A stretch of DNA of 64,000 nt from Branchiostoma floridae. Taxonomy: Eukaryota; Chordata; Leptocardii; Amphioxiformes; Branchiostomatidae. The notes under the pieces were generated by a model. It was given only the letters and a program-made list of their open reading frames with translations. It did no database searches and was not told where the DNA came from. A program made the translations under genes and the position numbers. Below, piece by piece: positions 2,043 through 61,751 of the stretch; the stretch's first letter is position 1; every line of letters starts with the position of its first letter. The stretch spans positions 16,398,189 to 16,462,188 of the forward strand of contig NC_049992.1 in assembly GCF_000003815.2 (NCBI RefSeq). The letters are read 5' to 3'.

Positions 2043-5000
2043 CTTGAAAAAGCTTTGGAGTTCGAAAGTACCTACCACAAGAAGGCACGAGACCGGATTT
2101 CAGCGGTAAATAGACTCATGAAAACTCCATTAAAAATGCATAGCGCTGGATTTTCCCATCTACTTTCTCTCTGTGATGCCTTGTGAATGCAGGGATTAGT
2201 GGGTCAAATCCACCAGTCTTGTGATGTTTACTTTTTGCCTTAAAATAAGTTAAATAGCAGTGATGATGTTGTTGACTTCTAGATTTTGAGTGTTGATAGC
2301 CTGTCCTTGCATGGTCGTATACTTGCATAGAATTTTGGGAAGAAATATATATGATTGTGGCAGAATTCAATTACTAATAGATAAAATGGAATGATTTGCA
2401 GATAACATTTTAACATTACATCGAAGGCTATGGCACAAAGCTCTTCAAAAATACTAGGTTATATCGCTAGCAGTTCAAAGGAATTAGGTTGGCTATTTGA
2501 CAAGAGTCCTTGTTTTCTCCTGACAAGTTGAGTGAAGTATTGAAGGAGATGGAAAAAGAGTCACTAGACAGAACTATCCTGGATCTGAGGAACCAACAGT
2601 TACAAGAGATGCTGGCTGAGGTAAAGGACTAAATTCCTGTTGCAGAAATCCTAAACTTGTCAAATTGTTAGACCTATAGTCTCGCAGTTACTACAAGACT
2701 TGTAAAAATGTATTTTTGCAAGTTGTTTGCAAATCAGAGCATCAAATTATCTAGAAAACTAATTGTGGACTTATTGCCCTTGTCCTGTGGACAGTTGGAA
2801 AAGGAATACCTGCTTGTCTGTGATGACAAGAGTCAGGAGTGTGCAGCCCTGACAGAAGAGAACACAATGCTACTAGAACAGGTACTATAGCACTCTTCTC
2901 CACTGGATTGGCTTAGTCGTGAAGTTAGTTCAAATAGTGTATTTTTTTAAACAGACTCAGACTACACTAGCTTACAGTACTTACAGTGGCAACACATAGA
3001 TTATCTCGAAATGAAGATTGATAAAGTCCCTGTAATTTTGATGGTGATATGACAGAAATTTGAGAAAAAACAACAATTTCCCTTATTGACTGACTTCTAC
3101 TGTTGTACTGGTAGTTAGAAAAGGAACACAGTGATAAGAAGATGTTCCAACAAGAGTGCAAGAACCTCACCACTAAGGCTGCACAACAGCAGCAGCAACT
3201 TGAGGAGGTAAACGACCAAGATTTCTTCCCTTAATTCCTTCAAATGATGATTTTCCCTTTTCCTTATATCTGTGCTGTCTTTCTGTCAGAAATATTCAAC
3301 AATCTCTCCCTTCTCTTAGCTGAAAAAGAAGTTGGAGGACTTGGAAGATGAAAGACAGGAGTTAGAAACAAATAAATTCCAGCAAGGTGTTCTGGAAGAA
3401 AGAATACGAGAGGTACATGCATGCATTAAACGATACATAATATCAACGCACCTCCTTTATCATTCATCAACATTTTTAGCATTTTAGGATACAATTGTTC
3501 GTTTAAATGCATTGAGGTTGTAGTGCATACCCTAATGCTGAATGGTCTTGGATCTATTTTAGTTGGAACATGACTTGGAGAGTGACAGAAAAGAGATGGA
3601 TGAATCAACAAGACTCAATAAAGAGTTACAGGAAAAAGTTGAAGAGGTATCTCTAATCAATGACCTTAGGCAATATAGTCTGGCTGCTTTTACATCTCCA
3701 TTTGCTATAGTTTGACAATTCTAGAAATCCCCAGAGTTAATTGTAGGTTCCCAGATTATCTCTAATATAACCAAGAATGATGCCAACCTCAGTATTGAGC
3801 TGCTAAGGCCTCATGGTCACAGTAGAAGCACAATGTAGGCCCAGTCTATATTTAGAGCAAGGCTGCCCAACACAGGCCAAAGCAAAGCATGTTGTCCTCC
3901 CTTGGCTGGGTCTCAATATCCCATAGACACTGGGCTTAGAAGGACTTTAAAGTCACGCCTCAAGTAAAGACACCCTTGTGCCTCTACTATGTCAAAGGCT
4001 TTAGTTTAAGCTATGGTTCAAAGCTGTAGGATTCAATTTAAAGGCTAGAGCTTTAAAGAAGAGGTCCTCTGCAGGAATGTAGTGTAGTTTTTACAGCTAA
4101 ATGTGTAGCATTTCCGACCCTAACATGCATGGGCAGAACACAACCAATTGTTAGTCCCACAAATTCAGTGAAACATGTATAAAGTGTAACCACAAACTTT
4201 ATAAAACTGGTCTGTAGACCTCCAAAATTGAAGAAACACTCCAGTAGGCTACGAGGGGCGTGCAAGAAGTAATGGCCCTGACCCATTTCCCATAGCAGGA
4301 GATTAATGAAACTTGGCACAGATATTAGTCATTCTCTTCATAGGAATCACCCAGAGTTATGCATTTCTCCCATCGTTTGATGCAGCTCTGAACACCGTTT
4401 TTGTAGGACACCCCAGGTTGGTCCTCCAACAGATGCCTCATCAATGGCAGAAGAGGAACAACCAGGTCTGGGAGCTGTTTCCACAGACTTCCGGCCACGT
4501 TTGAATTCAGGATGCCAGCGTTTTACAAGGTCATATGATGGGGCATCATCACCATAAGTTTCATTTATTTCATCAAAAGTCTTCTTTGGTGTGCGTCCTT
4601 TCAAATACAAAAACCGGATCACTGCGCGACACTCAACTGGTTCCATTTCACACCTGGTCCATTTCGCACCTGACTAAGTTCATACACCGGTAAATCAGAA
4701 ACCACAATTAGTTCAGAGCTGTCTTTCGCAACATAACCCATAGAGATATGAATCATTATACATACAAAATTTCATTTAGATCAGACGACTGGAAGTGGGT
4801 CAGGGCCATTACTTCTTGCACGCCCCTCGTAGTTCGATGTATTGTACATCTCTTAAGATCTTTCTTCAACTTGTCTTAGTCCACTAAGAACCAGTCCTTT
4901 GCTGCTATCATTACTGTTTTTGTGTGTAATCTCCGAACTGTGTCCTAGCTGGAGCATGACCTCAGGCGCAAGACACAGGAGTGCTGCAACATGGAGTTAG

Positions 5001-8000
5001 TCAACTCTGAGATAGAGGAAAAATTGGAACAGGTCAATGTTATTATCCAGTCATCCATTCAGCAGTTTTCTTCATTTCTTAAAACATTTCGCTTTGATCT
5101 TCTAGTAAGCAGGCAAAAAGCATTGTAACTATAGATCAAATAATAGTAGCTGAAATAAAAAGTTAAAGTTAGATTTATTGGAAATAATGATTGCTCTTAT
5201 CTCTTAAATTCTGAAATACAGATCACATATGTTGCTGTTAGTTTTCTCTTGAATCTACCTCACCTCACCTCACTGGTCCCATAGCCTCACCGGCCGTAGG
5301 GGCAGCAATCCCATCAACATAAGTCTTGAATCTACAGTAACTCGAATATAGGACTGTTTTTCAGTGGTAAAACTGTTAGAAGTCGCTGTCTTTTCCCCTC
5401 ATCATCTCTTGTACTAATGCTGATGACTTGTGTGATTGGACCTCTAGGTTCAGGAGAGTTTTGCAGTCAGTAAGAGACAATGCCAGTCTTTGGCAGCACA
5501 GAAATCCCAGCTACAGAGTGTTGTAGAAGAGGTACTAACATTGCATGACTGTACTACTTTATTCTGACTAACAGTGCATGGGTAATGTCAAGGCATACCA
5601 TATCAGTTTGAAAGGATTTTGATTCAAAAATACAAAGTCAAGGTTTTGATACTGTGAAGCTTTCATGTTCTCAAAAGTTGGAGCGCAGTTTACTTTTATT
5701 ACTGCTGATATTTGATGCCTTCACATTAGCTTGTACACTTTGATCTCTCGTTATACTTTTATCTGTCTCTAAATCTACAGACTGAGGTATATTGTAGAAG
5801 GCTTAGGACTCGTCACTTGTCAGATTTTCTGTTTAACTATAAGACTAAGAACATACATGGATCTTATTCATCAAAAGTAGACTAGCTCGAACTAGGTCAA
5901 ATCACTGAAGCCTAGATTAGGTTATGTTGATTAGTTGTTGTTTTGTGTTGGCACATGTTTGTGATAACCGAGGCACCTGTATTGCCGTCCCACCCAAGCT
6001 AGAGGTAAAAGTGGAGGAGTCTCCCCGCCAGGCCACTCAGAAGATGCTAGAACAGTATGAGGAGCTCGAAAATAGGTTACAAGAGGTGACTGGATCATAC
6101 TCATTATACTTGTGACATGGTCATGGGCCCTATTCCCTGCCCCCCACCCCACATGGAACTTTTGCCTAAGTTCTATTGTTATGGTGTTTTCATTATTTGT
6201 TAGTGGAGGGATAAATGAAAGTTTGTTATAATGCCTTGCAGCAAAGTTTCCCAACCCATATATGGGCTTATAAGGCATCATGATCAAAAGAATATAAAGA
6301 TTTTTATCTCTTTGAATCATTCTCTGCTGTAAAGTTCAGGGCATAAACTGATAACTTTGTACATTGTAGGACTGGTAAAATCCACAAGGAAAAGGGCCCA
6401 TTGCCATGTTAATTACAGTTGTTGTAGATATATGTGTCTATTAGTAATCATTTATGTTGTGGATATGGTAGATTGTTTGCAAAGTAGACAGTTTTTCCAA
6501 AGTTGTAGAATTATATCTTACAATGGTAATAAAAGATTTCGTTTCGGGTTTTTTCTGTGAGGATTTTACCCTTTTAAATCTGTTGTAGATCTTCAGTCAC
6601 TTTCTTTGCAGTAAGACGTGATAATACTTAGCAGGTATCTTGTAAATGGCAAAACACATTTTGAATCTCTTTATCAGATAAATATAATAACCTCCTCAGC
6701 AGATTAATGATTATGTTTGATCAGTTATATATACATAGGATCAATGCTTAAGACAAAGTTTAATCGCATAAAACAACAAGCATATAATATGCTTGATGAT
6801 ACAAACAACTTAAAGCTGGCCTCATGCATCATAGCTGCGAATATCAAGTGCTCATTCTGGTCATCCTTGCTATGGAGATTCTGCGCATGCAAAACAGCGA
6901 CTCCCCACACTATCACAGCGTCCTCCCATCTCCCAATGCCTTCCTACGTTCCCGCGCTGGCAGCAAACGTGTGCGACGTTTCCCGGTTTCCCACACAACC
7001 CTCCCCCTTCCTGCCGCAAAGCTGGAGCAGGTGCTCAAATGGGAGGAGGAGGTTCGGGCGCAGGAGGCCGCCAAACGGGAAGAACTCGAGGTGGAGAACG
7101 AAAGACTCTCCAACAAAATCAATGAGGTGAATATGGTGTGCTGTCTGGGACATAAGAAATAATGAAGACGTCAATAATGTTTCAGGCGTCTCATATAAGA
7201 GATTGGCAACACACTATATGTACTACTGAAGTCCTGACTTGTACGCAGTTTGGTATCCGGTGTGATATATCTTCATGCTAGGAAAATAATACACTGGAGG
7301 AAATATTCTTGAAATCACTGATCACAGACCACAATATAACAATGAAAAGAATTTGCAATCATTTAGACTTTCAACCATTTAATTAATGTTCTGAAATGAC
7401 AGCACTTGGTTTGTACAACAAGGTGTTTTTTGCTGTTTGGTATTGAGGACTTTTCTTCACACAATACAGTAGAATGCACCAATTTCTGAATGTTTTTCCT
7501 ACCAGTTGGAGTCCCAACTAGACTGGGAGCACAATGCTCGGGAACGAACCGTTTCCGAGCTGCGCTTTGCACAAATGACAGTCGAGAAGAAACAGCTCAA
7601 AATACAAGAGGTATTCTCGTCACCACACTTGTGTGCTGTTCTGTGTGTCTCTCTTCAACATTAATACAAAAACATACTTATTAAGTAATAGATAATGATA
7701 TGATAATTTCATAACTTAAATACAGAACATAATTAGACATTTCCTTGTCCAATCTGAAAGAACATCATGGTACCTTGACTTGTATTTTGTCACTTGTAGT
7801 ATAAGGCTTAAGTATAAGTGTTTCTCTTCCTAGTTGGAAAAAATCATTGACGGACAGAACAAGGAAAACCAGAGGAATGTACGAGAAATAAACTCCATGA
7901 GACATGACATCGAGAGCAAAGAGGAGGAGGTTAAGGAGGTATCCAAGAAAACTTACCTTACACTTTGCAATCAGAGCAAAAATTCCTTAAAGTGACTGAG

Positions 8001-9892
8001 TGTCTTCTTTGTATGATACTAATAAGTGATGCAGCTTTATTTGGTGCTGTGTGACAACTAACATTTTAAGATATCCAGAAAAACAACATAGCATTGTTAA
8101 AGTCAATATTGAAGGCTAACATTTGAAGTCTTACTTGGAAGTACAGTAGAAACCGTTTATTTGCACACCCCATTGCCAGCGTATTTTGTGCAATTATCCG
8201 GTTGGTGCAACCATGCAAAGTTATCCAGCTGGACAGCACCAGTATTCCTTGCAATTAACAGAAGTATACCTTAATCCGTTGTGCAATTAACTGACTTCTA
8301 CTGTACTGGTAACTCGTGATTGTCCTGCCCGAACCCCCTGTAGTTGGAACAGCAACTTTCCCAGTGTGGACAGGAGATTGAGAAGGGGTCTCGGGAAATC
8401 AAGGCCATGAACTTTAGGAGCAGCAAACAGGAGGACCAGATCAAAGAGGTGCAATATCATAAAAATCATGATGACAACAATAACAAATCATAATGATTTA
8501 CCATCACTAAAATCCCTCTAGGTATCACCTAGAAATTAAAGGCTATTCCATCTTAAACTTTCAGGTGGTTGGCCAGAACATTTTACAAAAATCAAAATTC
8601 TAAGAAACAGGAAGATCTGTATCTTGTTATTGCAATAACATCAAGAGGAATATCATATTTGAACCACCACCTGAGTTTTTTTAGATGGAATAGCATACTC
8701 TTAATCATAATTAAACCACATCACCAGTTTTTGTGCAGTGTCTGTTTCTCCTTTGGCTTTCCCTTTGTCAAAAATAAAACTTGAGAATACACAGTTATTT
8801 CTTTGTGTGCTGTGGCCTTCTTTTTCCCAAGCTCTACTTAAAGTGTTGCGCGTCATATTAAGAGCTAAGTGATTAAGAAAACGTATGTCTTTCCTTTAAT
8901 TGTAGCTGGAACATCGCACCAAGAGGGATTCACGTGAGATCCAATCCCTCAATCTCAAAAATGAAAACCTTCAAAAACAGATTGAAGAGGTATAATAAAA
9001 AGTGTGTCTTGTGTCTGTGTGTCTTTACTCTAATCCAAATAGTTTATGTCTTCAGTCTAAGAAATCTTTTTTAAACCTTAACAGTTAATTTTCTTGCATC
9101 CAAGCTATTCTGATGCAGTATGCAAACGCATGTTGAGAAAATGACATCAAAAGTTGAAAACATCTTTTGATGTCAGTTTTCTCCTATCTCTTCTGTCAGC
9201 TGAAACAATATCTGGCAGAGGAAAAGGGAGAAAAGGACCAGAAAACACGCGAGGTCCAAGGGCGCGACCAGGATATCAAGCGCAAGAATCGTGAGATTTC
9301 AGCCTTGAAAGCAGAGAAGCAGGAACTGGAAGCAAAAATAGACGAGGTATCATAGATTCTGATAGCGCAGAAAAAAATCAGGACATATCTTTTGTTATAT
9401 TTCAGTTTGTTTGGTTTTTTTAACATTATCTTTTTGGAGACAACAACTTTCTAGTAGTCTTTACCAGACGTCTTGGTTGCTACAGAAATGCTGTTTCGGC
9501 AGTGATGATTGGCCAAATACAGAGAACTATAATATGCCAGCTTATTCCTTTGGCATATCATCTCTCCGTGTTTGACCAATTTCTGTAGCAAACCAAAGAG
9601 TCTGGTAGAGACTATTTTGCTAAGAAATCATGTAAGACTCAAGAGATGAAGTTAATCAGTTTGCAGAATCAGCACGTTTTTATCTATCCCACTTCCGTAG
9701 CTGGAGCAGCTTCTGAAGCACGAGACCGGCGAGCGCGAGCGCGAGACCACGGAGAGCAAGAGCCTGGCCTCGCAGAACATCGAGCTGCGCCGCAAGCTGG
9801 AGGACGAGCACGCCAACTACAAGCGGAAGCTGCAGGCGTACCAGGATGGGCAGCAGCGCCAGGCACAGCTCGTGCAGAAGCTGCAAAGCAAG
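2043..9892 (+). CDS. CROCC: Rootletin exons 1-16: N-terminal array of phase-0 coiled-coil mini-exons
   Basis: Exons: 2043-2105, 2528-2620, 2795-2881, 3115-3207, 3320-3412, 3563-3646, 4949-5032, 5448-5531, 5999-6085, 7022-7126, 7506-7610, 7834-7938, 8344-8448, 8906-8989, 9200-9346, 9701-9892. Lengths are 21, 31, 29, 31, 31, 28, 28, 28, 29, 35, 35, 35, 35, 28, 49 and 64 codons. Every exon begins and ends in phase 0; most start Leu-Glu (LEKE, LEHD, LEQQ, LESQ) and most end in Glu just before GT. Ten of sixteen are whole numbers of heptads. The peptides are charged coiled coil with no Pro-rich breaks. Only exon 16 has a clear match in vertebrate rootletin; the rest looks like expansion by exon duplication. 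Limits are by eye; exon 9 (acceptor at 5997-5998) is the least certain. Confidence 0.82.
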
Positions 9893-15800: not shown

Positions 15801-18800
15801 TGAGTTTCACCCTATTTGTAATGGTGTGCCAGACAGTTTAGCAGTAATCCTAGCCAGGCCCAACAAAACGCCAGCTTGCGGGTCAGGGTAATGCGATACC
15901 GCAGTCTGCGGCGTGCTTTCTGTACTCCCGCTCTTGACGTCGGCTGCAGTCTAGCCCTTCCCGACAATGTTCCCGGGAACCGCGTACAACCCCCGTCTGT
16001 CCGCCCGCCCTCCACACAAGCGATGTGAGTGACACTTCCCAGGGGATCTTGTGAAATATTTGTAACTTGTCCCAGTTGTTTGTGACACCAGGTGGTACAA
16101 GATAACTGTCACCTGCTGAAATTGTTTGGTAGTGGGCGGGGAGTCTTTTCGGAAGGACCTGCGAGAGCACGGCACTTGTATAGCCTCTTGTTAAGTGGTC
16201 TTTCAGTCTATTGTTCGCCGAGACAGTACCTAATTTTACAAGCCAAAGTTTGCCACGTTTTCCCATCAATGGGCGACCAGCAGTCCGTTACATTAAAGAC
16301 AGGAGACCTTTTGAAAGGACAGTTAGGATTGGACTGGACAACACAATAGGTGATGTTGCCTCAGCACCGGCTCCGGGGTAAATGTTCTGCCCAGTGTTTG
16401 CCATGCAAATGGGAGGGGCAGGCTGGCACCAAAGGGGGGACGCTACCTTTTCATTTACCGTGAGCCAAAGTTTGTGAAACGGTTGAGTGGTGCACGGTGG
16501 CCGTCACCCGGGTTTTACTCCAGCCATCCAAGGATTAACGCAATGTGGCAACGTGTTATTACGGACTGTATGATGGAAACGTGATAGTTTCGTACAACAA
16601 GCTGCTATTTTTGGCCACTTTGGGCATAACGGGGGAGTTGAATGAAGATCTAGATTGCAGCAACAACCCAAACAGTGAGCGGTAAGGTTTAGTGTTCGGT
16701 TTCACTCGCCCTCCCCACCTGTTAGAAGGATGGAACTTTGCCATCTGCACTGACGTGTCTCAAACTTCCTTGTTCCGACTTTAGGATAGGAGTGCCCGAA
16801 GGCTCGACGACTCCCCTAACTGGGAAACGTTGCTTTCACTTGATTGACAGTCAATGGGTTTAGGGTATCAGGTGACAGGCAGGTAGAAGTTGTCCCGGGG
16901 ACAGGTATGTTGTGTGGACGGCGTGCGTGTTGTGGAATCTTCAGTCACCTGGAACCCCAGGGTGACAGATAGCGTCCCTAGCGCTATTGTCACCGCTCCC
17001 AGCTACCAAGAATGTGTGGCTAAGGGTAGGATATAGATGTTAGTGAAAGGGTAATTAAGAAGATCTCCAGAAGTGGTCTGAAGAGGATTTGGGGTTAGAG
17101 GTTTGTGTTTTCTTGAGGTGTTTACCTTGTGATTACCTTGTATGGGTAGCTGTAGGGATGTTAGCTAGTTCTGGTTGTGGCCCATGTCTGTGTGCTTTTG
17201 AAGGGTCTATGATGTGGGGTTGTTTCAAACAGTTCATGTTGTTTTCATCGATCATTAATGACAGCTGTCTTATTGTGAAATGAAAAGGTATTGACTGACA
17301 GGAGCAACATTAAGCACTTTGTGAAAACATGAGTCTTGGTTTCATCCACTGTGAAAACACCTGAGTTACCTGTTGTTAAAGGGATATTCTGTGGTATCTG
17401 TTTTGTCTGTCACTAGGAATGTAACATCCTTTTAAAGAGTACCAAATTGGAATTGTTCAAAGAGCTAAATTGTGTGTACCTACATGATTTTCAATTATGC
17501 CAAGGCAAATATAGTTACCCCATGTTTGACTACTCTTTCTACCATGTATTTGTTGTTAAGAATGATTAACTTTAAAGTAAGAGATTAAGATTTGAGTGTA
17601 TTACAGTACATTACTGTATGCGAAACCCTGTTGCCATACAATCTTGCAAATTTGTTTCCCATAGTAACACTGTTCCTCTGTTATGTTACAAATTTGTTGC
17701 ACCTGAACACAGCAACCCTACAACAATGTATCATGTGTTCCAAAACAGTGGATCTCTTGTCGGGTTGTGCACTATTGAGATTAACTTCAGGTCTTACTTC
17801 CAGCTTGTGTTAATGACCGACTCTAACCCTATTTACATGTATATTTAAGAGAGTCTATCACATTACCTGGGTGATTAAGGTGTTTGCTTTTGTGTTGGCA
17901 GGTCCTGCAGTACAAGAAGAAGGTTGGTGAACTTGAGTCGTCCATCAACGAGCGCGAGAAGGAGAGCGAAGCTGCCAAGCTCGACGTAAGTCTCGCAAGA
18001 GGCGATGTAAGTATGCTCAGGGTTTTTCCCAGCCAATGGGAGCACTGTACTCAGCCTGCCTTGCAGATGATTGACAGTCAGCATCAGCAGAGAGAGTGAT
18101 GATGTAATGCTAGTTCACCTTTATCCACGGGTTAACCTATATCCGTTGTATGTAGAAAAAAAACAAGGTATTTGGGGATAGCAAGTTGATAGACGGTGGT
18201 TTCAAACCGTAAATTAAAAAAATTAAAACTTGATGCTGTATCCCAAATTACCTTGTTTTTTTAACAACGGATATAGGTTACCCCACAAATAAGGGTGAAC
18301 TAGCGTTAACCTGAAGAAAAGTAGAGTGTCTTTTTTGTTGGAAATTTTATTTGAGTGACAAGCTTCAAAATTGATTAATGTTAGTATTAGTGTCATCAGT
18401 ATAGACATTACTCAAAATTTTCCCACAAGCTGCCACATCTGACAAGATAATGATTTAGTATAATTATTGGCTTCTCCAAAACTTTAACTCTAGAATTGAC
18501 AAGTATTGATAAAGTTCGGTATGAGTTTTGACCGATTGGTGGACTTCTGTATATACAATGTATATCGGATTCCACAACCCATTGTTGAGAACAGTTGAGT
18601 TACACATCATGTTCTTCTCTGCTGTGCTGCTGTTGGACTGTGCAAAGGTGGGATTTAACAGTGCTTCTGGCAAGTTTGAGGCACACATCAATGAAAGAAA
18701 TAGAATCTTCACCTTTAAGAAAGCAGAGTGGTGATTGGCTGCTGCTTTGTATTGTGTCAAGTAAGCTGCACGTCTGTCCAATAGTGCCTCTGGTTTTAAT

Positions 18801-21800
18801 GGTGGTTTGGGCAAAACTGCTGCTTTTATTCTTTGCTGATCTGTGTGGAAAAGTGAAGCATTTTCATTGAAGGATATTGCCAATGTTGCTTTAATTCATA
18901 TTTATTGTATCAAATTTTCTGTCAGAGTCTACCCTCAAAATTTGATCTTATAAAAGACACTTCTACAAAAGATTATAATTCGATATAATATTACCCTTTT
19001 TCTGCAAGAAATTGACCATACTTCATGTCAAGTTTAAAATAAAGTGCCCAACTACCAGATTTTGAGAAAAACCCTGGGTTACTTACAATTTTTTGAAACT
19101 ATCAAAAGTTACTTTTATAACCAAGTAAATGTTCTGAACTTTTCTGATTTTTAGTTTCACTAACAGCTTTTTGATTTAGATCTTTATCGACTTATTTTTT
19201 GTTCTAGTACCTGACTTTTTTTCTATTCATGAGAAAAAATATCTCATTGCAGTGAGAATAATGCTTGGAGTGTTTGTGTGTTTTCTGTTCATTTTCTGTT
19301 GCTCTACTCATACTCATTGCTTCACATTTGACTCTTCCTTCTACTGATGCACCATTGATAATAGTTCATTATGAAGGTAACTCAGGTAAGTACAAATGTA
19401 GATTTAGTATATGTTGTTGTTGTTTGTCATTGTTGAAAGAAAGTACAGAAAATCAATAATCTTATATGTGTCAACATTTTTAGTAGAATGAAGTACAATG
19501 TACAATATGCGGTATTGCCGACTTTGTTGTGTACATTGTTTGTGAGAGATCTATAAAAGTTACTGCAAATGAACATAAGACTAAATAAGAAACGGTGTTG
19601 AACAAATTTTGAATAGAAAATGTTAGAGTGGTGACAGAAGAGAAAAATAGTTTGCAAGCTTTCAAATTTGCAAATATCCCTGCCTCAATACACTGGCACA
19701 CAAAGTTTGGACCCACTGTGATATTTGTATTGACTTATGCAGTGATATACGTCAGTCTACAGTGACCGAAAACAGGTGAAACAAACATTGGGACTCTCCC
19801 AAGCAAGTTCACAGTCATTGGCTGCAAAGAGTTCTCTTCTAATCTTAGCTTGCAAGTAGGCAAATTTGCCGTCATCATTGTTGACTAGGTTGTCTGAGAG
19901 TCATCGACTTGAAAGTATAAAGGTGAACATTGTTCAGGAAAAAGTGAACTTGCATGTTGACCCAAGTTTTAGCATAGTCACTTAAATCGATTGTAGAATG
20001 TGTTGGTTCCCCAGAATTAAGCCAGACTATCGTGAAGTCATCACTATTTGCCATTTTAAGATTCCATGTACACATTCTTTATCTGGGGCTATATTTGTTC
20101 CTTCCAGTTATTGCTTAGCAATTGTCCAGCTGACAGAAATGTCAGAAACGTCTGGCATCCACTGACAGGAAGGGTGACACGTTACCTGGCTTATGTGCCA
20201 CACCATCTGAAATGCCCCCTTTTTTGCCCTTTCAAGTTACAATGAGCAAAACCTCTTGTGCAATTGTTTGCAAAAAAATTTCTACACGCTCCTTGTAATA
20301 GTTCAGATAATGAAGTCACTGTGGGGCAAATAAAAAAAGTGCCTCCATTAGACTTTTTAAGAATTTATTTCAATATTCTGAAGCATAACTGAAAATACAA
20401 CACTAGTCTTTTTTAAGAAAACTAGCTACTCACACTGTAAAAAGTAAGGATGTGTATAGTACCTTATTTGGTCAAATACCTGCACGTGAAAAACAGCTAG
20501 GTGCAAGGTTCAAGTCTAGGAGTTGTCCACAGTGTTATTTTCAGTCATATAGATGTTATAAAAGCTATGTAAATCAATCAGCTGTTAAAGTTAAGATAAC
20601 GTTGGCTGCAAGTTATTTGTTGAAGACTTTGGAAGGTGGGATTTATATTGTAGTAATAACATATGACCTTGAATTGGAGTAGTATTTTAATCCTACCTTC
20701 TATATTGATCTAGCCTAAAAGGGTACATTCATCAATTTGTTTACCTGACATGGTTTAGACATTACAGTTTTGCCAGATATATTGAGGAATACTTTACGTA
20801 CATGTTACTTATCATGTTGTACGACTCTGCTAGGATGGACATTTGCTCCAAAACCTTACCTCAAAATTGGCCTGCTAATCGATATACTGTGCTATATTGT
20901 TTACCAAATTCTATTGACTCTGTGCAATTGTAACATTTCTACTGCGAGTCCATATCCTTAATATATGAACTGGACCAAAGCGAATGACTGCCTCTCCAGC
21001 TATTCTCGAGTGACGTATTGACACATCTGTTGACTAGCCGTCAATGCTGTGTGCAGAAGTACAACTGATTGCATGCTAAACATTTCAAAATTTAACGGAC
21101 AAAGTGAAGGCTGAGTCGTAACCATGTAGCCGCGGCCAACATGAGTTCTTGCAAGGGATTATGTTCACTCTCCTGATGTTCCTTTCTCAAGCTCTACCTC
21201 AACCGAAGGTTATTACATCTATTATAAGATTCCCACTTACTTGTGTGCATAACTTTTATAAGTGCTTAACATTTAGCATTGAATTTGTATAAGAGTGGTA
21301 AAGGTCATTCAGAGGTTTGATTGTATATTTTCAACGTTTTCGAGAACACAAATGGCATATTTTATTTATGGTAAAATTTAAGCAGCATCGCCATATCTAT
21401 GGCAGTTTAACTGACTGGATAAGATCTTACTGAGCTTGTCCAAGAAGGAGATGGATCAATTACTATATAAGTGTGTAAACTGATTTCATTATAATTGTAT
21501 ATGGCCGTTTGATTGGTGAATTTACATTGTTCTAAAACATTTGACAATTTGTTAATGCAATGCTGTTTTCTTTAGGACAAATTGGACGTTTGGTTCTGTT
21601 ATTGAGAGCAATAGGTTGTTCAAACTTTTGCAGTTTTTGAAACAAAAATTGCTCTGGATGAAGTGGTGTTAAGTCTTTTTTTACATTTGGACATTAAGTT
21701 GATGACTATTCGTTAATGGCATACCTGATAGCTTATTTTTCCTGTTATCGCAAAAAACAACAATGAACTAAAGACTTCATTGGGCGTGGCTGAAGTACCA

Positions 21801-24800
21801 AAAATATTTTGGAGTGGTGTTTTTAAGTTTAACTTGGTCTTTTTATTAGATTTGGACATAAGGTTGATGACTTGCCATACGTGGCATACCATGCAGATAG
21901 CTTATTTTCCGTGTTATTGCAAAAAACAACAAAGAACTGAGGACTTAATTGGGCGTGGCCTGAAGTACCAGAAATATTTTGAAGTGATGTTTTAGTCTTT
22001 TTGAAGTGGTGTTGTAGTCTCTCTTTTTCGATTTGGACATTAAGTTGATGATTTTCCATACATGGCATACCAGAAAGCTTATTTTTCCTGTTATTGCAAA
22101 AAAACAACAATGAACTGAGGACTTATTTGGGCGTGGCCTGAAGTACCAGAAGTATTTTGTCAGTATGAATTTTTAAAGAGGAAATGACAAGAATGGAGAA
22201 TGGGACCTGTTTGCCATTATAGGACAGAGAATTACCAGGTTATAGCCCTTGTACAGACGCACAATTTCATTAAGCTGTCTCTTGTGAGACAAGATGGATG
22301 CCGTGCTAGATACAGACGCTGTTCGTGCCATCCTTTCTTTATAAAAATAACCAAAATTTACATCTAGCTTTGGCTCAGGAAAGCGAAAAGCTTATTTTGC
22401 TAACAAACAGTGAAAAAGATGACTATATACTCCTAGTTTATGCATTATGTAGGAGTGTCAAGAATAGATCTTTTTTTCAAGATCTTAACCTTTGAATTCA
22501 TTTTTCAGTTGGAGTCCACCCGAGACAACTTGTCTCGTTCCCTGGAGTCGTCGGAGGCACGTCTGCGTGCCACTGAGGAGGAACACAGCATGGATCTGGA
22601 GAATGCCCTGATCAAGCTGGAGGAGGAGCAGCAGAGGTACAGAGCTCTGACACTTTATCTTGCATTGTCTTTAGGCCCAATCTATACACAGTTTTTACCG
22701 ATATCTGTGGATGTGTCAGGAGGGATCTGCAACGTTGGCTGCGGGACAGCGTGGCGATTGCAGTCACAAACAGCTATATAGCCTAATGAGCCCGCGTTGT
22801 ATGCTAATGAGCCTTCCCAAAGTCGGGACACATCTACACACGCGCGGAAGCTGTCGGGGACCCCTGCTAAGCTATCGGGGACCCCTGCTAAGCTATCGTG
22901 CGAATGGTCCGGACCTTTCGGGAGAAATTTTCCCGATATCTTTATGGCGATATTGCACTTCCATCTAGACGCTGAAAAAAAGCTGTTGGCGAGAGGTTGT
23001 TGGCTCGCCGATATCGGGAAAAACCGTGTCTAGATCGTGCCTTAGATAAAGCCTTGTATGAATAAACAGCATATTGTTACTCTAGAAGAGGACCGCTCTA
23101 CAGTTTGTTCAGTAGAATCATCCGTAGACTAGTGTAACAGTTACACAGATAAGTTTGATGAAAGTCATGAGTCTATATTTACATAATTCCATGGAAATTT
23201 TAAGAGATCTTTCCGCTCTACACTTGTTTTATTGTAGAACCATTAGTAGTGTAAAGTTTAATTGTAGATAGCTTCGAAGAAAGTCATAAGTCTGAATTTA
23301 CATAGCAGCATTGAAAGTTTTAAACAGTAACGGAAGTTCTTGCAGTCTTGCTAAAGGGGGACTGCAGTGCAAAATATTGGTTGGCTTGAATGAAAAGTTT
23401 GCCATATACAGCATGGCAAATTTTAGTTCTTTTTTTGCTGCATTGCAATAAAGAGTCCGCCTTCATTGAGTGGTCGTTATGTTTCCTGACATGTTACTGT
23501 TGATTGACAGGAGTGCTAGCCTGGCCCACGTGAACGCCATGCTGCGTGAGCAGCTGGACCAGGCCACGCAGGCCAACCAGCAGCTGACCGCCGACATCCA
23601 GCGCCTGACCCAGGACTGGACACGCGCCCGCGAGGACCTGGAGAACAAGGAGGCTGAGTGGAGGGAGGAGGAAGCCGTGAGTACCCGGATTTTACTCCTC
23701 TAAATCATCACCATTTCTTAAACAAAAGTCCAGTGCTTGGTTTGATCTTTGTAGCTGTTTGGAGATGCCAACAGAAAATGTTCTCTCCTCAAAACTGTCA
23801 CCATTTCATAAACAAAAGTCCAGTGCTTGGTTTGATCTTTGTAGCTGTTTGGAGATGCCAACAGAAAACATTCTCTCCTCAAAATTGTCACCATTTCATA
23901 AACAAAAGTCCAGTGCTTGGTTTCATCTTAGCTGTTTAGAGATGCCAAAAGAAAAGCGTTTTCTTATCAAAGTTGTCATCATTTCACAAACAAAAGTCGT
24001 ATGCTTGGTTTGATCTTAGCTGTTTAAAGGTGCCAACAGAAAAACTTTAATTTAATTTCATGCAACGAAATAGTCTTCATTTCAGAAACCTATGCTTGAT
24101 TTTATTTGTAGTAAATCTTTGTAACTGTTAGGAGATGTCAACAGAAATACTTCTTTTAACTACAGACATTGATGGTTACTCCTGTATACATATTGAAGGA
24201 TGTCAAGCATCTAAACAATACATGTGATATTAAGTTGATACATATATCGATCTTTAAGATTTTGCTTTGGGGAATATACATGTAAAATTTGTCTCTGACA
24301 TTATTGAAATTGCCTAAAAAATGTTGATTTGTTTCCACAGTCCTTCAACAGCTACTTCAGTCAGGAGCATGGTCGTCTGCTGGGCCTGTGGCGTACTGTC
24401 ATGTCGCTGCGCCGCCAGTTCGCTGAGGTCAAGTCTGCAACCGAGAGGTCAGGATTTGTTGTCTCAATCTGACCCAAGTTGTCTGACCAAAGTGGACTAT
24501 GCAAACATGATTTACATTTGAGTTACTTTTGCATACCATCATTGGCAGTTAGTGGTTCAACCAGTTTTTCTAGTTAGCTGTACTTGTATTGAATTGTGCT
24601 GCCAGTTCATTTTAGTGATGCTGAAGAAGAGTGATGGATGTCATTCAAAATGTCCAGAAGTAAATCTCTGTTTTTTATCCAGTTGTAGAGATTAAATTGT
24701 ATTTTAATATTGTTTAGTTGGATGTGCAACCTTCATAAAAGTAGAGTTATGATGTTATCAGCAATCAGACTTTGTATCATCCAAGTCATTCGATTTTAAA

Positions 24801-27800
24801 GTATTTTTGAGTTCAGCATTCTGGCATGGCTTACTGATACCATGTTGACATGATATGCTGTTATGATAAAAAGGAGTGATGTAATACATGCAAATTGTCC
24901 TGTATAATAATGGATAGTTTTATCATACACTTCACCTGATGTGTAAATCCTGTTGTTTGTTTCCTACAGGGACATGTCTGGCATCCGTGCCGACATGACG
25001 CGTTCCTCTCGCTCTCTGCACTCTGCCTGCCTCAACCTCCAGGCCAACACGCGCATGGCGGACTCCACCACGTCCGTGCAGCTCGACAAGGAGCGCGCCG
25101 ACCGTTCCGAGATGGAGAACCAGCTGCGCGACAAGGTCAAGGAGGTCATCACGCTCCAGTCCAGGCTGGACACGGAGCGCTCGGACCTCAGTGGCAGGAT
25201 CAACGAGCTGTCCGTGCAGAACGAGCGCCTCAAACTGCAGGTTAAGGACCTCAACAAGACCATCGAGAACCTGGTAAGTAGTCTGACCTGACATTTGTAG
25301 GCTTACTTCATACATGACAGGCTTTATCAGTGGGCAAATTTTAATCTACATTCCTCTTCTTGCAAATCTGTTTATTTTGAGTGAGTTTATGACATAGTTT
25401 GGCTTAAAAAAGAACCTTTCAGTGATGTTTTAAGTCTGCGTGGTGATAACAATGTTTTTTGTTAACCTATAAAGGAGGATATGATGGATTTCATTTTTTT
25501 TATATCTTGGGGTAGTCTTAGGCAATAATAATTAATGTAACATGGTACATGTTTTTAATTCCTGTCAAAGACACAAATCTGTTTAGGATTCCCAGAACCC
25601 CACCATTGAGAGATGGGCCATTCTGTTCTGGCTAAGTTCTAGGCTGTCTGAATACTGGCAGTGATGAGAACGTTTCCTTTATGCTCCTCCAGGAAACCAT
25701 AAATGTAACATGATGGTACACTTGTTTAACTTCTGTCAAAGACATAAATCTGTTTAAAGGATGCCTGGATCCCCATCATTGTAAGGGTTTGCCATTCCGT
25801 CCTACATGTAGCTAAGTTTAAGGCTATCTGAATACTGGTAGTAACCAAGATGTTTCCCCCGTGCCCCTCCAGGAGACCAGCCGTGCCGAGGCCACTCAGG
25901 AGCTGGAGCGCTCCCAGGCCGAGGCCCTGCGTGATGAGACCGAGGCTCTGCACCAGGCTTTGCGCGACATCGCTAACGTTGTCATCACCGACGCTGACGG
26001 TGTCGGGGAGAAGGATGACGACACCATGGCTGATGCTGACCTGAGCCTGAGGTACATGGTTGTGTTTTCTTCTTTGTTCTCTGTAATATCTGGAATAAAG
26101 AAACATTGTGGTTATTTTACTGCAAACTGAAATAGACATGGAAAGTCATCCTTCACCGCAGTTTTTATGTATGAATCAATTCATACTGATTTTCTGGACT
26201 GTGTCATGTTATACCCCTTTGTTTTTGCACCTGCCTCTTTTTTCATTGATGAAAAATAGGTTGAATGCAAAAAGCAAGGGTCGCTTGCAAATCTAAATGA
26301 CATTGTTTTCATACGTGTCACATTTTTCAAAGACCAAGCACCCAGCACACTTTTGAGCTGTGTTAGGTTACTTTCTTGAGGGATCCTTATCATTTCTCTT
26401 TATTGCTTCTTTGATTCTTTTGATTTCATTTCTTGGTATTTCCTGTTCCTGTTGGGATTGAGAATGATCCATCTGCTCTCTAAGTTATTTTCTTGGATCT
26501 GTTTTTTTTGCTGTCTTCTCTTCCCTTATTGCTGGGGTTGTGATCCCTGTGTAGGGCTGTAGCCTGGGAATCCTGGAGATTCTTCAACAGGCTCACCATA
26601 CAGTAAGTCTCCCTCTCTCCCTCACCTCTCTGTTTGCTCTTCTTTCCTTCTTTCTCTCAGCTTCATCTGCAATAGATTATCAGCTGCATGGTAACACGAC
26701 AACTTTTTCTTCTCTCTGCTCTCATTGCATGTTTGTTACACATGCTTGAGGATTTTGCATAGTTTGGATATCAAAATGAGGAAAATGTCGCTGAATTGAA
26801 AATACCATCCTTTTTATACTTCATTATATATATAGACATTGACATAATCACCTGAGTTAACATACTTGTACAGGCTGTAGTTAAGCAAGAAACATCCTTG
26901 TTACTAACACAGCTTTTCTAGAAATAGAGTTCACAGAGCTTGCATTTTGCAGTTCGGGAGACCTTAGAAAATGTTTTTGTTGTCTCCAAGATGTTTTCAC
27001 GAAACTATACTACATTCAGTAGAAATTGTTTGTATCCATGGTGTGATTGACATATGTTTGTGTCGTTTTCACAGGTCGACCTCTCCCAGCCGTCTGCGTT
27101 CGACCTCTCCCAGCCGCCTGCGTAGCCCGTCTCCCTCTCGCCGCTCGCCCAGCCGCGGCCGGTCCCCGGCCCGCACCTTCTCTCCCGCGTTTGCTGAGTC
27201 CACCCTGGGTGCCGTACAGGCTGCACTGCAGAAACGTCAACTCCAAGTCCAGGTACAGAAAACACTACGTGTACATCATATCATATATGTCAAACATGCT
27301 AGACAAAAATAACTAATTTTTATGTAAATGAAGCAGGAACGTCCATGTCCATGTACAGACAACACTATCATAATGTAGACAAAACATGTCAAACATTCTA
27401 GACAAAAATTACTATCAATTTTATGTAATTCGAAGCAGAAACGTCAAGTCCATGTACAGACTATACTATCATAATGCCAAACATACTAGACATGAAATTA
27501 CTTGAATTCATTTCTATACAAATGATGCAATGTATATTTGTCCCCCTATGACAGTAATCTACTGATTACATTCTCTGAGCAAGAAACTTTCTGTCAAATC
27601 AAAATATAAAGGCTAAAGCTAAACTTGAAATTTGGCCAGAGTAATAATAGTTTGCATGCTTACAATAGTTTCTGACAGAGGTAAAACTAAACTTGTCCAC
27701 AATTGTCATATCTGCAAGAAGGTCACCAGTATTGAGGACAAGTCCCATGGGAGTTTCTTACATGTGTCCTTTGGCTTTAAAGCCATGCATACAATATGTA

Positions 27801-30800
27801 TGGTTAATAATAGCCTGACACACCAATTTGCCTTTTAGGACAGTGAATTTTAGATGCTGTTTCAAGTTGTAATTGCCCTGTGCTGCATTGTATTATGGAC
27901 CTTTGAGTCATAATTTTTCTGTAAAAATAGTCTCACATGAAATACAGTGTAAAGGGTGAAATGTTGTCAGCATTGTTTGAAAGAAAATGTATAAACCACA
28001 GAAACGGCCAATTTCATGATTGATTGATCGCCACACACTGTTACTCCTTTGGGACCTGCATCAGGTATATAAGATGGTATCTCCTGGCCTTGCATTGCTA
28101 TTTGGTGCTAGCTAACCCTTTGTGGTAGGCCTATGATAATGTGCTATCAAACAGTGTAAGATATACAAATGTACCATGATACGAGCAACATCGTTGACAC
28201 ACTGTTACCTGGTTATACAGGAGCTCAGGGCCAAGCTGAACGCCCAGCGCGACCAGGGCGGCTCGCTCAAGAAGCAGCTGGATGATGCAGACAACGAGAG
28301 GCGTCGCNNNNNNNNNNNNNNNNNNNNNNNNNNNNNNNNNNNNNNNNNNNNNNNNNNNNNNNNNNNNNNNNNNNNNNNNNNNNNNNNNNNNNNNNNNNNN
28401 NNNNNNNATGGTCATACTCATAGTTGTTTTGAACAAGAGTTGTAAAAACACAATAGTTACATGGTTATGATGTAAATGTAAGGTATTACATATGGCAAAA
28501 AAAAATTGGTAACACTCCTTTAGGAAAGCATAATGCTACTAGGATGTGCAAATGTTAGGTGTGACAGGTTGTTGAGTGCAATATAACCAGCTGCTGCCGT
28601 GCCCCGTCCCTGTGAAGCTGGTGTGTTACGACGAAGGGCGGTTATACCGGCTATATATATACAGATACAGATACAGGTATACCAGCTGCTCATTTGTGTA
28701 ATATCAATTCACAATGATTCGTTATCACAGGAGTCGCTCCAAGGACGATGCAGTCCGTGATGCCAACAGGTTCAAGAATGCTCTCGACCTGACGGGAAGC
28801 GAGAAGTCTGCGCTGGAGTCCATCCGTTCATCTCTGAATGATGAAATCGAGGCCTTGAACGCGGAGAACCAGAAGCTCCAGGCTGCCAACGCTGACCTTC
28901 AGCACCAGCGTGACAGCCTTGAGGACGAGAAGGATGATGTCATCAAGGACAAGGAGCGTGGGCAGAAGGAGATCGAACGATGGTAACAAATCGATTAGAG
29001 ATGTAACATCTTAGAAAGTATGATGCTTCAAACTATTGCAAAGATTCTAAGAACATAAAATCCTGGTATCCAATACAACTGTTGTATAGTTAGTCATTTG
29101 GGTTATACATGTACAAGTAATCATTAAAAAATGATTATGAGAGATGAAGTTGTGAAGATGGTCACAATTGCAGTAAGTCTTTCAAGAGAAACAGTTTTTT
29201 GCTTCAAAAATGTTGTCAAGAAATTTTTTTCATTCCTTTTACCTTGGCTTTCCTTTAAAAACTCTGTAGATGATTGTATAGTGCCAGTATTTTGTGCATG
29301 AAAGTAAAGAAAATATATTTCATTCCTTATGTCTTGTTTTTCCTCAGCAACCGTGTGCAGGAGCAGATGGAGATGAAGAACTCTGCGCTGCGTGAGGAGA
29401 CTGTGACTCTGAAGGAGGCCCTGAACCGGGCTATCCTGGAGAAGGAGGTCCTCGATCAGGAGAAGGCAGAGATTGCTGAGTCTCTCTCCAAGGTACTGTT
29501 CCTGCCGCATTTTGCTCCTTGATGTTTATACAACACACGTTCTTCAATGTACTTCATTCATACAGCAGCATCTTAAGTTTTGCCGCTTAATGTTTCTAAA
29601 ATGCATTTTCCATGCAATTTTGCAACCAAAGCTGCTGTAGTTTGAGTTGAGCATCAATTATCATGATGGTTTTGTGGTCAGTAGTTTCACAGTATTGGAA
29701 AGATGTTGGTTTTGTAAGAGGTAACGCAACACATTGACTGAAATTGAGTCAAGATTTAGAGTTCAGTATCAGTTGTCATGATGGTTTTTAGGTCAATAGT
29801 TTCAGAATATTGGAAAGATGAAGGTTTTGTAAGCCGTATTGCAACACATGGACTGACCTGCTGTATAGACATGAGTCCTTGTTTTGGTCAAGAAGTTTGA
29901 AGCAGTTTGTCCTTGAATCGCCAGGTGGAGCTGCAACGTGCAGAGCTTGAGCTGGAGATCAGCAAACTGAAGACCGAGGAGGCCGGCCTCAGGGACTCAC
30001 TGCTCAAGATGCAGGCACTTAACGAGGGCCTGGGACAGGTAAGAACATAATACATTTCTTTATATCAAAACTCTGCATTTCTTTCTCCCCAAACTTCAGT
30101 ATAACAGGGATTTTGAAAGTTCTTGCATATGTTGGACCCATATGTCAGTGAGAGTTAAAGATGATCACACAGCTAGAAACGAAAGACACGTGATAACGTT
30201 TAGACCTTAGAGTTAGAACCAGGGCCTGGGACAGGTAAGAACATGATACATTGAACTCAACAATTCATTTGTAAGTTGATTCATTTGTATCCACTTCCTT
30301 GTATAAGTATAGCTGTCTAAATTGCTGTACTTTTGTTGCGTTGATAAAGATTATTGTTTTCACTGATGATGACTGAAGTCAGATAAATGCTGCACAATGT
30401 TGATGTCATCAGAACTAGTTGTCTTTTTCTCTGGAGGAGCTAAACTTGTGTTCATCCCTTTTCCCAAGGACAAGATTGAGCTGAACAAGATGATCATGCA
30501 GCTGGAGGCTGAGAAGGCCTCCCTGATGGGTGAGAAGGGAGAACTGGAGCAGGAGAAGTCCAGTCTCAAGGACGAGCTTGTCAAGACTGAACAGGAGAAG
30601 ATGGAGGTGGAGAACATGAAGAGCGGTGAGTTAACCACACGATTTTATCAATCCCTGTACTAACTTTGAGTTGTCTGTGGACAAAATATATGTGCAAATT
30701 GGAAGCTTGTGCTGGAAATGATCACAATCCCCAACTTTCAAGAGGATGGGACGAGCAAAGCAAAAATTTGAGCTTTGTTTATAGAAAGAACTTACACTGT

Positions 30801-33800
30801 TTACGCAAGTCTACAAAGCCAGTATAGGGGATTGCTCTACGTAATAGATATTCTTAGGCTATAGATACAGACAAGAAGCCCAATATGACTGAGTTTTGGG
30901 TTTAAGGTGTACCTACAAGGGTCTTTCTATGAGATGTATTTTGATGGCATTGAGGGAAATTTCATGGCCATTTAAGTTTTCTTTGTTGTCACCGACTGTA
31001 GTTGTGGATTCTGTAGGCTTGACTTGAGCAGCCACAGAACAAGATGTTTGTGAAAAATTGTTACATCTGACTATAAGGTTGTAATTTCTAAGCTGTAAAG
31101 CCTTTTGTGAAGGAGACTTTCCTGTTGTTTCTGCAGGCCTGGACCAGTCCCTGGTGCTGACAGAGCAGACCAGGGAGAAGCTGGAAGAGGACCTCATGTC
31201 TGTCCAGCGGGAGAAGGCTGAAGTCTCCGAACAGCTGTCTCAGGTAAGAACCAGAAAACATCATTCTGTACAAACTTCCCTAACATAGGAACAAATGATG
31301 CATGCAGAAATAAAGTTGTTTTTTATACTGTACAAAACACCAGATGAGTCATATCATTAGGATTAAGTACATTTTACCTTGTGCCCCTTGGATGCCCTAA
31401 TTCCAGAAAAGTGGTTGTCCAAGATATTTCATTTGCCATTCATCTTGTTTGTGTATCTTTGTCCTGGATGCAATAAAAATGATTTTGAACACTTCTATGT
31501 GACAATTAGATAAAGTTGTTTCATCATATCAATAAAAATTAGTGTCTATTTGACTATATCTAGTGGCATACACCATCCAAAATGAACTCGTCAATTAAGG
31601 CAAAAATTAAGTCAACACTTAGTCTATAACAAATTTTATGTCATACCTGTGACGCGAAAACGTTCGATACGGGTGTTCTGGACCGGGCTGTACGCTTCCG
31701 TATCGCACAGGTTCAAAAGGCGTATCACACAGGCTACATTTGAATAAATTGAACTGTTTCGAGCGGGCCGAATACGGCACGGTTAGCAATTCGAATACCT
31801 GATTTGGACGTTGGAACATTGCTGTTGCAACACTTTTTTGTTTGAGGGCACCAAAATCGTTCATCTTCTGGCACATTTTGCATCAAAACATGGTTTTTTT
31901 CAGGTGAGTATGACATACATAAAATACAACACGGTGTATTCCGCATCACCCTCGGTCTCAGCCCTCCCGCGGGTCGGATTACCCTCTGGCCTTCGACCGT
32001 CGGTCGATCCGACCCGCGGTCGGGCTGATACCTTGGGCGATACGGAACACACCGTGTTGTATTCTATATATTTATGATTTAGAAAGTTTTTCTATGATGC
32101 AAAATGAGCATTCAGTAATGTTGTGAATATCTCGTTTCCAGACGACTCGCCATAAGAACGCGCTGGCGGAAGAGCTGCTGCAGTCTCGGCGTGAGGTGGA
32201 GCGGCAGAGCGACACCGTGGTCCGTGTGGCCAGGGAGAAGGAAGAACTGACCAAGGAGAAGGCCAACCTGGTGGTGCAGCTGACCGCTGCCGAGAGGGAG
32301 AACAGGGCTCAGGTCAGCTGGATTTCTTTCTTTCAATACAAACAAACAAACAAATAAACAAACAGTGACTACAAATGACAACTTATTTTTATAGGCAGCA
32401 AAATCATCTAACTGTCTCCCTCAAAAGTGTTTTCCTCTAAAATATATCCCACAAACCTTCAAAATCTATATTTGCTGTTATCTCCTAGCGTACCTCCAAG
32501 CTACATCTCCCATCAGTTTAGTTCAGTGCTAAGAAGTGGTCCCTTTGCCTTGCAATTTTTTTTTTTACAAAATTTGATTTTTACAATGTTGGTAGGCTTT
32601 GTCCCAATAGTGGCAATCTTTTTTTATGTTATTTTGTCAAATCTGAAGAAAATTCTAGACAGATTTTATAAATTTTCCACGTAGGAAAGAAAAGTTGTAC
32701 AGACCAAAGTCTTTAAACTAGTCCAGGAGTAGAAAAAAAAGAAGCTTCTCACCATAAAGAGACCACTGTTCCTAACAATGTTTCTCTACATAAAGTCAAT
32801 GGCCTTCTGTTTCCCTTCATAACAGCAGAATTCCCCAACTTAACAGTGAAGTTAATGAGAAAAAAGAATTTATATGCTAACAAACCTACCCTATTTGTTG
32901 ATTTATGGATGTGGTCAGGTACAATAGTAGCACAGTAAATGTTAAACAGTAATTGTATCTAGTGACATATTGTAGCTACATTATGCCAAGCTGTCCAACG
33001 TTTCCCAGTTACAACACTTGAAATACACCTGTTATTTGAACAGGTTTGCTGTATATCAAACCTTGACTACAACATTCTGCTAAGCTGCCAATGCTTCTGC
33101 TTAACACTGCCAAGGTAGCTGTGACAGAACTGTTATGTAAACCCCTGCAAACCCGGCCATTGTTTAGCAGCTGTGTCTAGCCCTAACCACTGCATACTTT
33201 TCACTGCCATTAAAACATCCATTATGAATGACAACATTTTGAGATAAGCATAATCTTGTTGTGAAAATCTGAGAAGTATACACAAGCAGAGAGCGATGTT
33301 TACATATCACTTGTGAGAGAAGCGGTCATACGGGCCACCCCTTTTTCCGTGTTTATATTTTGGTTAAGACTATTGTAGCAGAACCAAAACCATTAGTCAG
33401 GGAACCATTCATACCCCCAGGGTTTCAGAACCATCCAGAACAGAGCATACGTCTCTGATTCTCCATGTTGTAACAGGGGAATACTGCAGTATGTAAACTT
33501 TATCTAGATTCTGCGATGTCATGCACAAATTATACCTACATCGTTGCCTGTAATACAGCTTCTGTTGTTGAGTGTAAGCAGTAGTTTCAGGTGTGTGGTC
33601 TTGTACATTTTTGTGGCTTCTAATGCCCCCCCCCCTCCCAAATGAACGTCAATTACCTGCTTGGTTGGTTATACAGTTTTGAACTAAACCAGGTCAAATT
33701 CTATATCTGTATTGGAGACTTTAACCCCATGAAAAAGCTCTTTTGTAAAAGTATAATATGTCGTGTCTTCTGAAAGTCTGAAATAGTTGTCTACAAGAGG

Positions 33801-58310: not shown

Positions 58311-58326
58311 ACAGGTGAATCACTTC

Positions 58327-61722: not shown

Positions 61723-61751
61723 CTTTTACTGTCGATTGGCCGGGTATCCGG

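Follow-up and report, generated by a model that had tools for sequence, protein, structure and literature searches.

A tandem array of small symmetric exons at the front of a predicted rootletin gene in the amphioxus Branchiostoma floridae

Background

Cilia are anchored by fibres of which rootletin is the main protein. Coiled-coil proteins such as this set distances within cells, and length variants of them are rarely easy to produce without breaking the coil. Here we describe a stretch of 64,000 nucleotides from the genome of Branchiostoma floridae (RefSeq assembly GCF_000003815.2, contig NC_049992.1, positions 16,398,189 to 16,462,188 of the forward strand), referred to below as the window, in which at least 15 small predicted exons appear to form the front end of a rootletin gene. 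Each of these units could potentially be removed in frame and in coiled-coil register, and they adjoin the conserved part of the main rootlet protein, so that the rootlet repeat and the reach of the rootletin N-terminus would become testable with a single amphioxus gene.

On balance we favor the view that the units are a tandem array of symmetric exon cassettes which arose, at least partly, through serial duplication and which give rootletin a longer N-terminal coiled coil. Positions are those of the window. Exon limits throughout are predictions from genomic DNA, as is the use or skipping of any exon.

Organization of the exon array

The plus strand between 2043 and 9892 carries 16 open exon-like segments, each flanked by AG and GT and each in phase 0/0 (16/16). 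Exons 1 to 15 are termed the array exons; exon 16 (64 residues) consists of an array-like unit followed by the start of the Rootletin domain. An initial annotation of the same DNA had reported sixteen consecutive phase 0/0 exons, and its coordinates proved right.

2043..2105, plus strand: array exon 1, 21 residues, 3 heptads, phase 0/0; the gene begins upstream of it
2528..2620, plus strand: array exon 2, 31 residues, phase 0/0; register shift of +3 inside
2795..2881, plus strand: array exon 3, 29 residues, phase 0/0; weak match to the array profile
3115..3207, plus strand: array exon 4, 31 residues, phase 0/0; acceptor tract like the end of an inverted repeat in intron 12
3320..3412, plus strand: array exon 5, 31 residues, phase 0/0; register shift of +3 inside
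3563..3646, plus strand: array exon 6, 28 residues, 4 heptads; resembles exons 7 and 14
4949..5032, plus strand: array exon 7, 28 residues, 4 heptads
5448..5531, plus strand: array exon 8, 28 residues, 4 heptads; begins VQ; alternative in-frame start at 5454
5999..6085, plus strand: array exon 9, 29 residues; register shift of +1 inside
7022..7126, plus strand: array exon 10, 35 residues, 5 heptads; alone among the whole-heptad exons in not having d at +1 in its best register
7506..7610, plus strand: array exon 11, 35 residues, 5 heptads
7834..7938, plus strand: array exon 12, 35 residues, 5 heptads; matches exon 13 at 7 of its final 21 residues
8344..8448, plus strand: array exon 13, 35 residues, 5 heptads; matches exon 14 at 8 of its final 21 residues
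8906..8989, plus strand: array exon 14, 28 residues, 4 heptads (exon 13 minus exactly one heptad); top match to the array profile
9200..9346, plus strand: array exon 15, 49 residues, 7 heptads; matches exon 14 at 7 of its final 21 residues
9701..9805, plus strand: residues 1-35 of exon 16, forming an array-like unit that is fused with the conserved domain
9806..9892, plus strand: last 29 residues of exon 16, holding the start of the Pfam Rootletin match
17902..48557, plus strand: approximate extent of the remaining rootletin coding region, for which the blind model described below gives 33 exons in various phases, decoys among them

Exon 1 opens at an acceptor and lacks a start codon; the gene must therefore have further exons on its 5' side, most likely outside the window. 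At exon 8 two acceptor AGs, both in frame, are separated by six bases and give 28 or 26 residues; only the first yields a whole-heptad length.

Two gene models were fitted to the region. The model that scores the usual donor consensus retained exons 1 to 6 and exon 16 and lost exons 7 to 15. A second model, blind to donor positions +4 to +6, retained all 16 exons, with exon 8 two residues shorter, and added a segment at 1465-1518. Since the array's own composition served as the seed for both, neither is independent proof of the exons. A profile search found no further array-like exon in the window at E<=0.3, the next match being an exon of the downstream coil (E=0.35). Two upstream candidates were set aside: 1067-1117, which has no hydrophobic residue at -3, and 1465-1518 (18 residues, phase 0/0, LEQEG..EKIST, Ile at -3), which may be an exon and was left out for a Gly at +5 and its length of 18 residues.

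Identity of the gene

When exons 1 to 16 and approximate pieces of the next exons were joined as a query, Pfam Rootletin (PF15035) matched query residues 514-618 with 78.4 bits against a curated cut-off of 36 (E=9.4e-22; profile positions 1-84 of 188). This match supports the assignment of the predicted gene to rootletin, as the initial annotation had proposed. A 190-residue query from exon 16 onward matched no solved structure at E<=0.01. Coil-like exons extend to about 48.6 kb and the open frame continues to about 48.85 kb. One open reading frame (ORF) ends in ..SSLRPSFRK, which may resemble the C-termini of other rootletins. The 8-kb intron after exon 16 contains a GC-rich 54-nt tandem repeat of 2.1 copies (11667-11780).

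The junction between the array and the conserved domain falls within exon 16. Residues 8-35 are the best of its 37 windows in the array column score, lying above all 776 windows of downstream coil and above all 32269 windows of ORFs located outside 2000-9900 on the plus strand or anywhere on the minus strand. The array hidden Markov model (HMM) aligns residues 11-34 of exon 16 in the same register with 7.1 bits, a score exceeded by one of 2327 non-array ORFs; the exon is not listed by that HMM at E<=5. The last residue of the best window is residue 35 of the exon, ahead of the Pfam match, which starts at about residue 41; the 64 residues divide into 35 and 29. Exon 16 thus opens with an array-like unit of 35 residues that runs into the Rootletin domain, which makes the array continuous with rootletin's own coil. 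The array therefore seems, from its predicted exons, to continue into the conserved gene rather than to be a foreign insert. The last exon had earlier been singled out as the conserved one; this stands for its distal part, and its first 35 residues look like one more unit of the array.

Exon lengths, phase and coiled-coil register

Ten of the 16 exon lengths are whole numbers of heptads, that is, exact multiples of 21 nt as previously annotated (binomial P=1.2e-5), and without exons 1 and 16 the proportion is 9/14 (P=2.5e-5). Among phase 0/0 exons downstream in the same gene, multiples of 21 nt number 1/10 or 2/9 depending on the model (10/16 versus 1/10, Fisher P=0.014). Phase 0/0 itself occurs in 16/16 exons of the array and 10/33 downstream (P=1.7e-6). 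The lengths of exons 13, 14 and 15 (35, 28 and 49 residues) differ from each other by whole heptads. It had also been claimed that most exons start with Leu-Glu and end with Glu, and each is true of 12 of the 16; the remaining starts are LS (one), LK (two) and VQ (exon 8, at 5448), and the remaining ends are Gln (two), Ala (one) and Lys (one).

Counting residues from the exon start (+) or the exon end (-), position +1 is Leu in 14 of the 15 array exons and Val in the other, and position -3 is Ile, Leu or Val in all 15. Core residues are also found at +5 in 12/15 and at -7 in 9/15. At exon boundaries downstream in the same gene, a core residue stands at +1 in 7/16 exon starts (Leu in 0/16) and at -3 in 4/13 exon ends. 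Neither gene model took account of register at the exon ends. In nine of the ten whole-heptad exons the best-fitting heptad register has position d at +1 (P=2e-7), exon 10 being the exception; for the five exons with 29 or 31 residues, counting back from the exon end gives the best single register, the shift lying inside the exon.

The cassettes thus begin at heptad position d, finish three residues past an a, and have phase 0 on both sides. Across the 105 forward skip junctions, a mean of 3.42 of four core residues is kept, as compared with 3.40 of four at the 15 native junctions. Because the register is common to both ends and the skip junctions are as good as the native ones, all 15 array exons look skippable in frame and in register as predicted here. 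The initial annotation had reserved such neutrality for the ten whole-heptad exons; the neutrality held, and the limit of ten did not. Net charge per exon part followed no regular pattern.

Splice sites, introns and base composition

Donors of the array carry AG at -2,-1 in 14/15 cases and G at +5 in none of 15, as compared with G at +5 in 23 of the 33 downstream donors of the blind model, decoys included (P=3e-6). A sieved set of 19 downstream donors has +5G in 17/19, but it is biased towards +5G since one of the two underlying models scores that position, and the 33 donors of the blind model are the fairer control. Against the same sieved set, +5G among AG-bearing donors is 0/14 in the array and 13/14 downstream, and the combination of +4A and +5G is 0/15 and 11/19. 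If any base were allowed at +5, the absence of G from 15 donors would have P=0.013. Computed pairing with U1 is weaker in the array (mean -6.1 versus -8.25 kcal/mol, P=0.0005, again with the +5G-biased set as control). Array acceptors are mostly TAG, with C at -3 in 3/15 versus 26/29 downstream, where the models supplying the acceptor and donor controls favor C at -3 and, in one case, +5G. The first exon base is C or T in 14/15 array exons and G in 19/29 downstream exons. The array has a G+C content at third codon positions (GC3) of 0.56; exon 16 stands at 0.94 and a set of 11 downstream exons at 0.79. By splice class and GC3, the array is a separate stratum of the gene.

The array donors, which carry AG at -2,-1 and do not continue into GURAG in the intron, fall into the AG//GU, or U5-type, class. 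Donors of the form AG//GUNNN are described as a normal class comprising about 45% of human sites (PMC11732430), and we therefore rejected weak donors as proof of alternative splicing. Nine splicing-factor motif patterns near the exons showed no clear difference. The UG-rich hexamer TGTGTG occurs seven times in the array flanks versus zero, and is a simple repeat.

Intron 6 contains a mariner-like relic (4249-4832) with 66-nt inverted ends that are 83% complementary and an ORF fragment with a Mos1 HTH_48 domain (E=1.1e-10). Over 29 nt, the acceptor tract of exon 4 (3085-3113) shows 86% likeness to 8286-8311, where an inverted repeat with arms at 8140-8174 and 8273-8307 ends within intron 12. 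The splice site of exon 4 could have been donated or overwritten by a mobile element; when 21 bases of the intron 12 copy were searched with up to three mismatches, only the copy itself was found in the window, and the link to a mobile element is a lead only.

Descent of the exons

Taken together, exons 2-15 are alike beyond the heptad pattern. In an end-anchored comparison of exons 2-15, the mean pair score was 16.3 versus 4.2 (standard deviation 1.3) under whole-heptad rotations, and in the interior alone (positions -24 to -4) it was 7.9 versus 0.7 (standard deviation 1.0; P=0.0005). When columns were shuffled among exons, the likeness of neighbours exceeded expectation (P=0.00075), the variance of scores was too large (P=0.0012), and the top eight pairs scored too high (P=0.0065). 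Exons 12-15 stand out as a group (P=0.002). The interior signal is found in exons 6, 7, 8, 13, 14 and 15 (P=0.0065).

Searches with a leave-one-out HMM profile ranked exons 13, 14 and 15 each above all 2327 non-array ORFs and exons 6, 7 and 8 above all but one, while exons 2, 3 and 4 were outscored by four to eight. By column score, 13 of the 14 exons from 2 to 15 are each equalled by at most 11 of the 776 downstream coil windows; for exons 9, 10 and 11 the numbers are 11, 2 and 11. Mutual likeness above the rest of the coil is seen in exons 6, 7, 8, 13, 14 and 15 and the unit in exon 16, and not in exons 1, 9, 10 and 11 by the HMM search or in exon 3 by column score.

The pairs 12/13, 13/14, 14/15 and 13/15 are 33-38% identical (7-8 of the last 21 residues), and their DNA is about 50% alike, with third codon positions 24-38% alike, which is near chance. 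The low identity and the state of the third positions indicate that the copies are old. Serial exon duplication is supported as the source of about half of the predicted exons (6-8, 12-15 and the exon 16 unit). To that extent the expansion by exon duplication suggested in the initial annotation is borne out, and for the remaining array exons a duplication origin is unproved.

Weighing of the explanations

A number of results count against a duplicated, optional cassette array. Under column shuffling the single best exon pair is not significant (P=0.076). In the leave-one-out search exons 5 and 12 were outscored by 32 and 36 of the 2327 ORFs and exons 9, 10 and 11 were missed; exon 1, which was never part of the profile, is outscored by 633 non-array ORFs and fits the array by phase, register and splice class, not by sequence profile. 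Exon 3 scores like ordinary coil, being equalled by 314 of the 776 downstream windows in the column score. Interior likeness beyond heptads is absent from exons 2, 3, 4, 5, 9, 10, 11 and 12 taken as a group (P=0.37), as it is from exons 9-12 (P=0.22). Pfam searches of the array itself gave only weak, generic coiled-coil matches below cut-off (crescentin rod, tropomyosin). Mutual blastn of the 15 introns gave only matches of 17-29 nt, no dedicated search for base-paired selectors being part of it. The ordinary donor class is no proof of alternative splicing, and the bias of the downstream splice-site controls and the predicted nature of exon limits and exon use belong to the same account.

It is quite possible, if short of probable, that duplicated cassettes are always all included, and that the heptad lengths and the register lock reflect selection for an unbroken coil without any tuning by splicing. 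Purifying selection on the coil alone would yield heptad-sized changes and a locked register, the intron comparison found no shared regulatory element, and no paper on such rootletin isoforms was among the literature matches listed. A coil needs only its total length in register, however, and the lock at every exon, including those of 29 and 31 residues, exceeds that need, although descent from one founder exon would also lock each exon; the uniform donor class and low GC3 also set the block apart. There is a somewhat smaller but real chance that the array is ancestral, a long N-terminal coil that is old in animals and was shortened in vertebrates, instead of the lineage-specific expansion that the initial annotation had suggested. 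The 33-38% identity of exons 12-15 and their third positions agree with old copies, and the array-like unit of exon 16 is fused to the conserved domain; this history is compatible with the cassette array that we favor.

Parallel gain of introns, by which a long repetitive coil in one or a few exons was split repeatedly at a recurring Glu|Leu-Glu site, would make the exons no duplicates at all. The consensus is indeed strongest beside the junctions (columns -3, -1 and +1), and exons 2-5 and 9-12 otherwise share little. We consider it unlikely, since interior columns are specific to position in the exon, neighbours are alike beyond what column composition explains, and the introns lack the common sequence that a spreading intron would leave. 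That the array is an artefact of the gene models, or belongs to a neighbouring coiled-coil gene that only seems to join rootletin, is very improbable. In favor of this reading, the exon limits are predictions, the array departs from the gene body in codon bias and splice class, and the donor-scoring model lost exons 7-15; against it, exon 15 joins exon 16 in phase and register, exon 16 starts with an array-like unit, and all 15 array exons are open with an end register that neither model selected.

Comparison with known systems

From exon 16 onward the gene body resembles Rootletin/CROCC (PF15035), and the difference lies in the at least 473 residues of cassette coil that precede the Rootletin domain here. 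To our knowledge, the N-terminal region ahead of that domain is much shorter in vertebrate rootletin. Kinectin, with its variable domains, also has short, optional in-frame segments within a long coiled coil.

Neighbouring homologous exons within one gene are also known from Dscam, exon 5 of SNAP-25 and insect Mhc, where tandem duplicated exons are alternatively spliced (see also PMC9741552). Those exons are mostly mutually exclusive substitutions as described, whereas the amphioxus units would be additive lengths of coil. Mutually exclusive clusters of the Dscam type would be expected to share intronic selector and docking sequences; the intron comparison here, which did not specifically seek selectors, gave only the short matches of 17-29 nt. 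Troponin T, also a filament protein, offers a parallel: the 5' end of its gene has a cluster of exons that share one phase class and are alternatively spliced, and these have been proposed to come from exon shuffling (PMC2447309). The excerpted text of that paper does not describe the 5' exons as heptad units and places a heptad domain in the 3' exons. Among the literature matches listed, judged by titles and the openings of abstracts, no description of the array or of rootletin cassettes was found; subscription journals and gene databases lie outside that set, and automatic annotations may list isoforms.

Possible role of the array

With exons 1-15 all included, the array amounts to 473 residues; at 0.1485 nm for each, these would make up a coil of about 70 nm. 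If splicing includes some or all of the cassettes, the N-terminal extension would reach up to that length, and each cassette would change it by about 3-7 nm. That the block shares one splice-site class and a low GC3 suggests joint handling of its exons, with inclusion of the block probably optional in certain cell types.

Mammalian rootlets have a spacing of 76-80 nm, and rootletin has been modelled as a coiled coil of about 265 nm with an 80 nm stagger and with its N-terminus proposed at the A-band (PMC11623930). The roughly 70 nm encoded by exons 1-15 are close to this spacing, and on the doubtful ruler reading given below, molecules that include the block could be longer by about one such repeat. 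Because the array precedes the conserved rod, a change in its length would more likely alter an N-terminal overhang than the stagger of the rod. The extension may therefore set the reach of the N-terminus at the A-band, for cross-links or membrane contacts, and not the stagger of about 80 nm.

The array may be tied to the rootlets of the amphioxus tail fin. The title of a 1975 paper by Flood, cited in PMC5247814 and PMC8435291, reportedly refers to amphioxus rootlet fibres as tail fin-rays. Columnar cells of the larval tail fin have large or long ciliary rootlets and express Rootletin (PMC5247814, PMC7296684). A splice-programmable ruler, with isoforms that would differ by whole register-neutral cassettes and long forms that would build the large fin-ray rootlets of the larval tail, is a doubtful extension of the genomic predictions.

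Other features of the window

Beyond the rootletin gene lie two tandem forkhead genes (52539-53865 and 58320-59657; PF00250, E=5.3e-37 and 4e-37), which are presumably FoxE-like. Matching pieces of their DNA are 93% and 98.7% alike, as would follow from a recent duplication or from an assembly of two haplotypes. Gaps of N occur at 50063-50162, 59242-59349 and 61013-61112. Directly past the second forkhead copy is a long unbroken ORF for a ribonucleotide reductase small chain (59811-60818; PF00268, E=3.1e-116). The window ends in a satellite-like tandem repeat (61750-64000) with a period of about 206 bases and copies that are about 93-96% alike.

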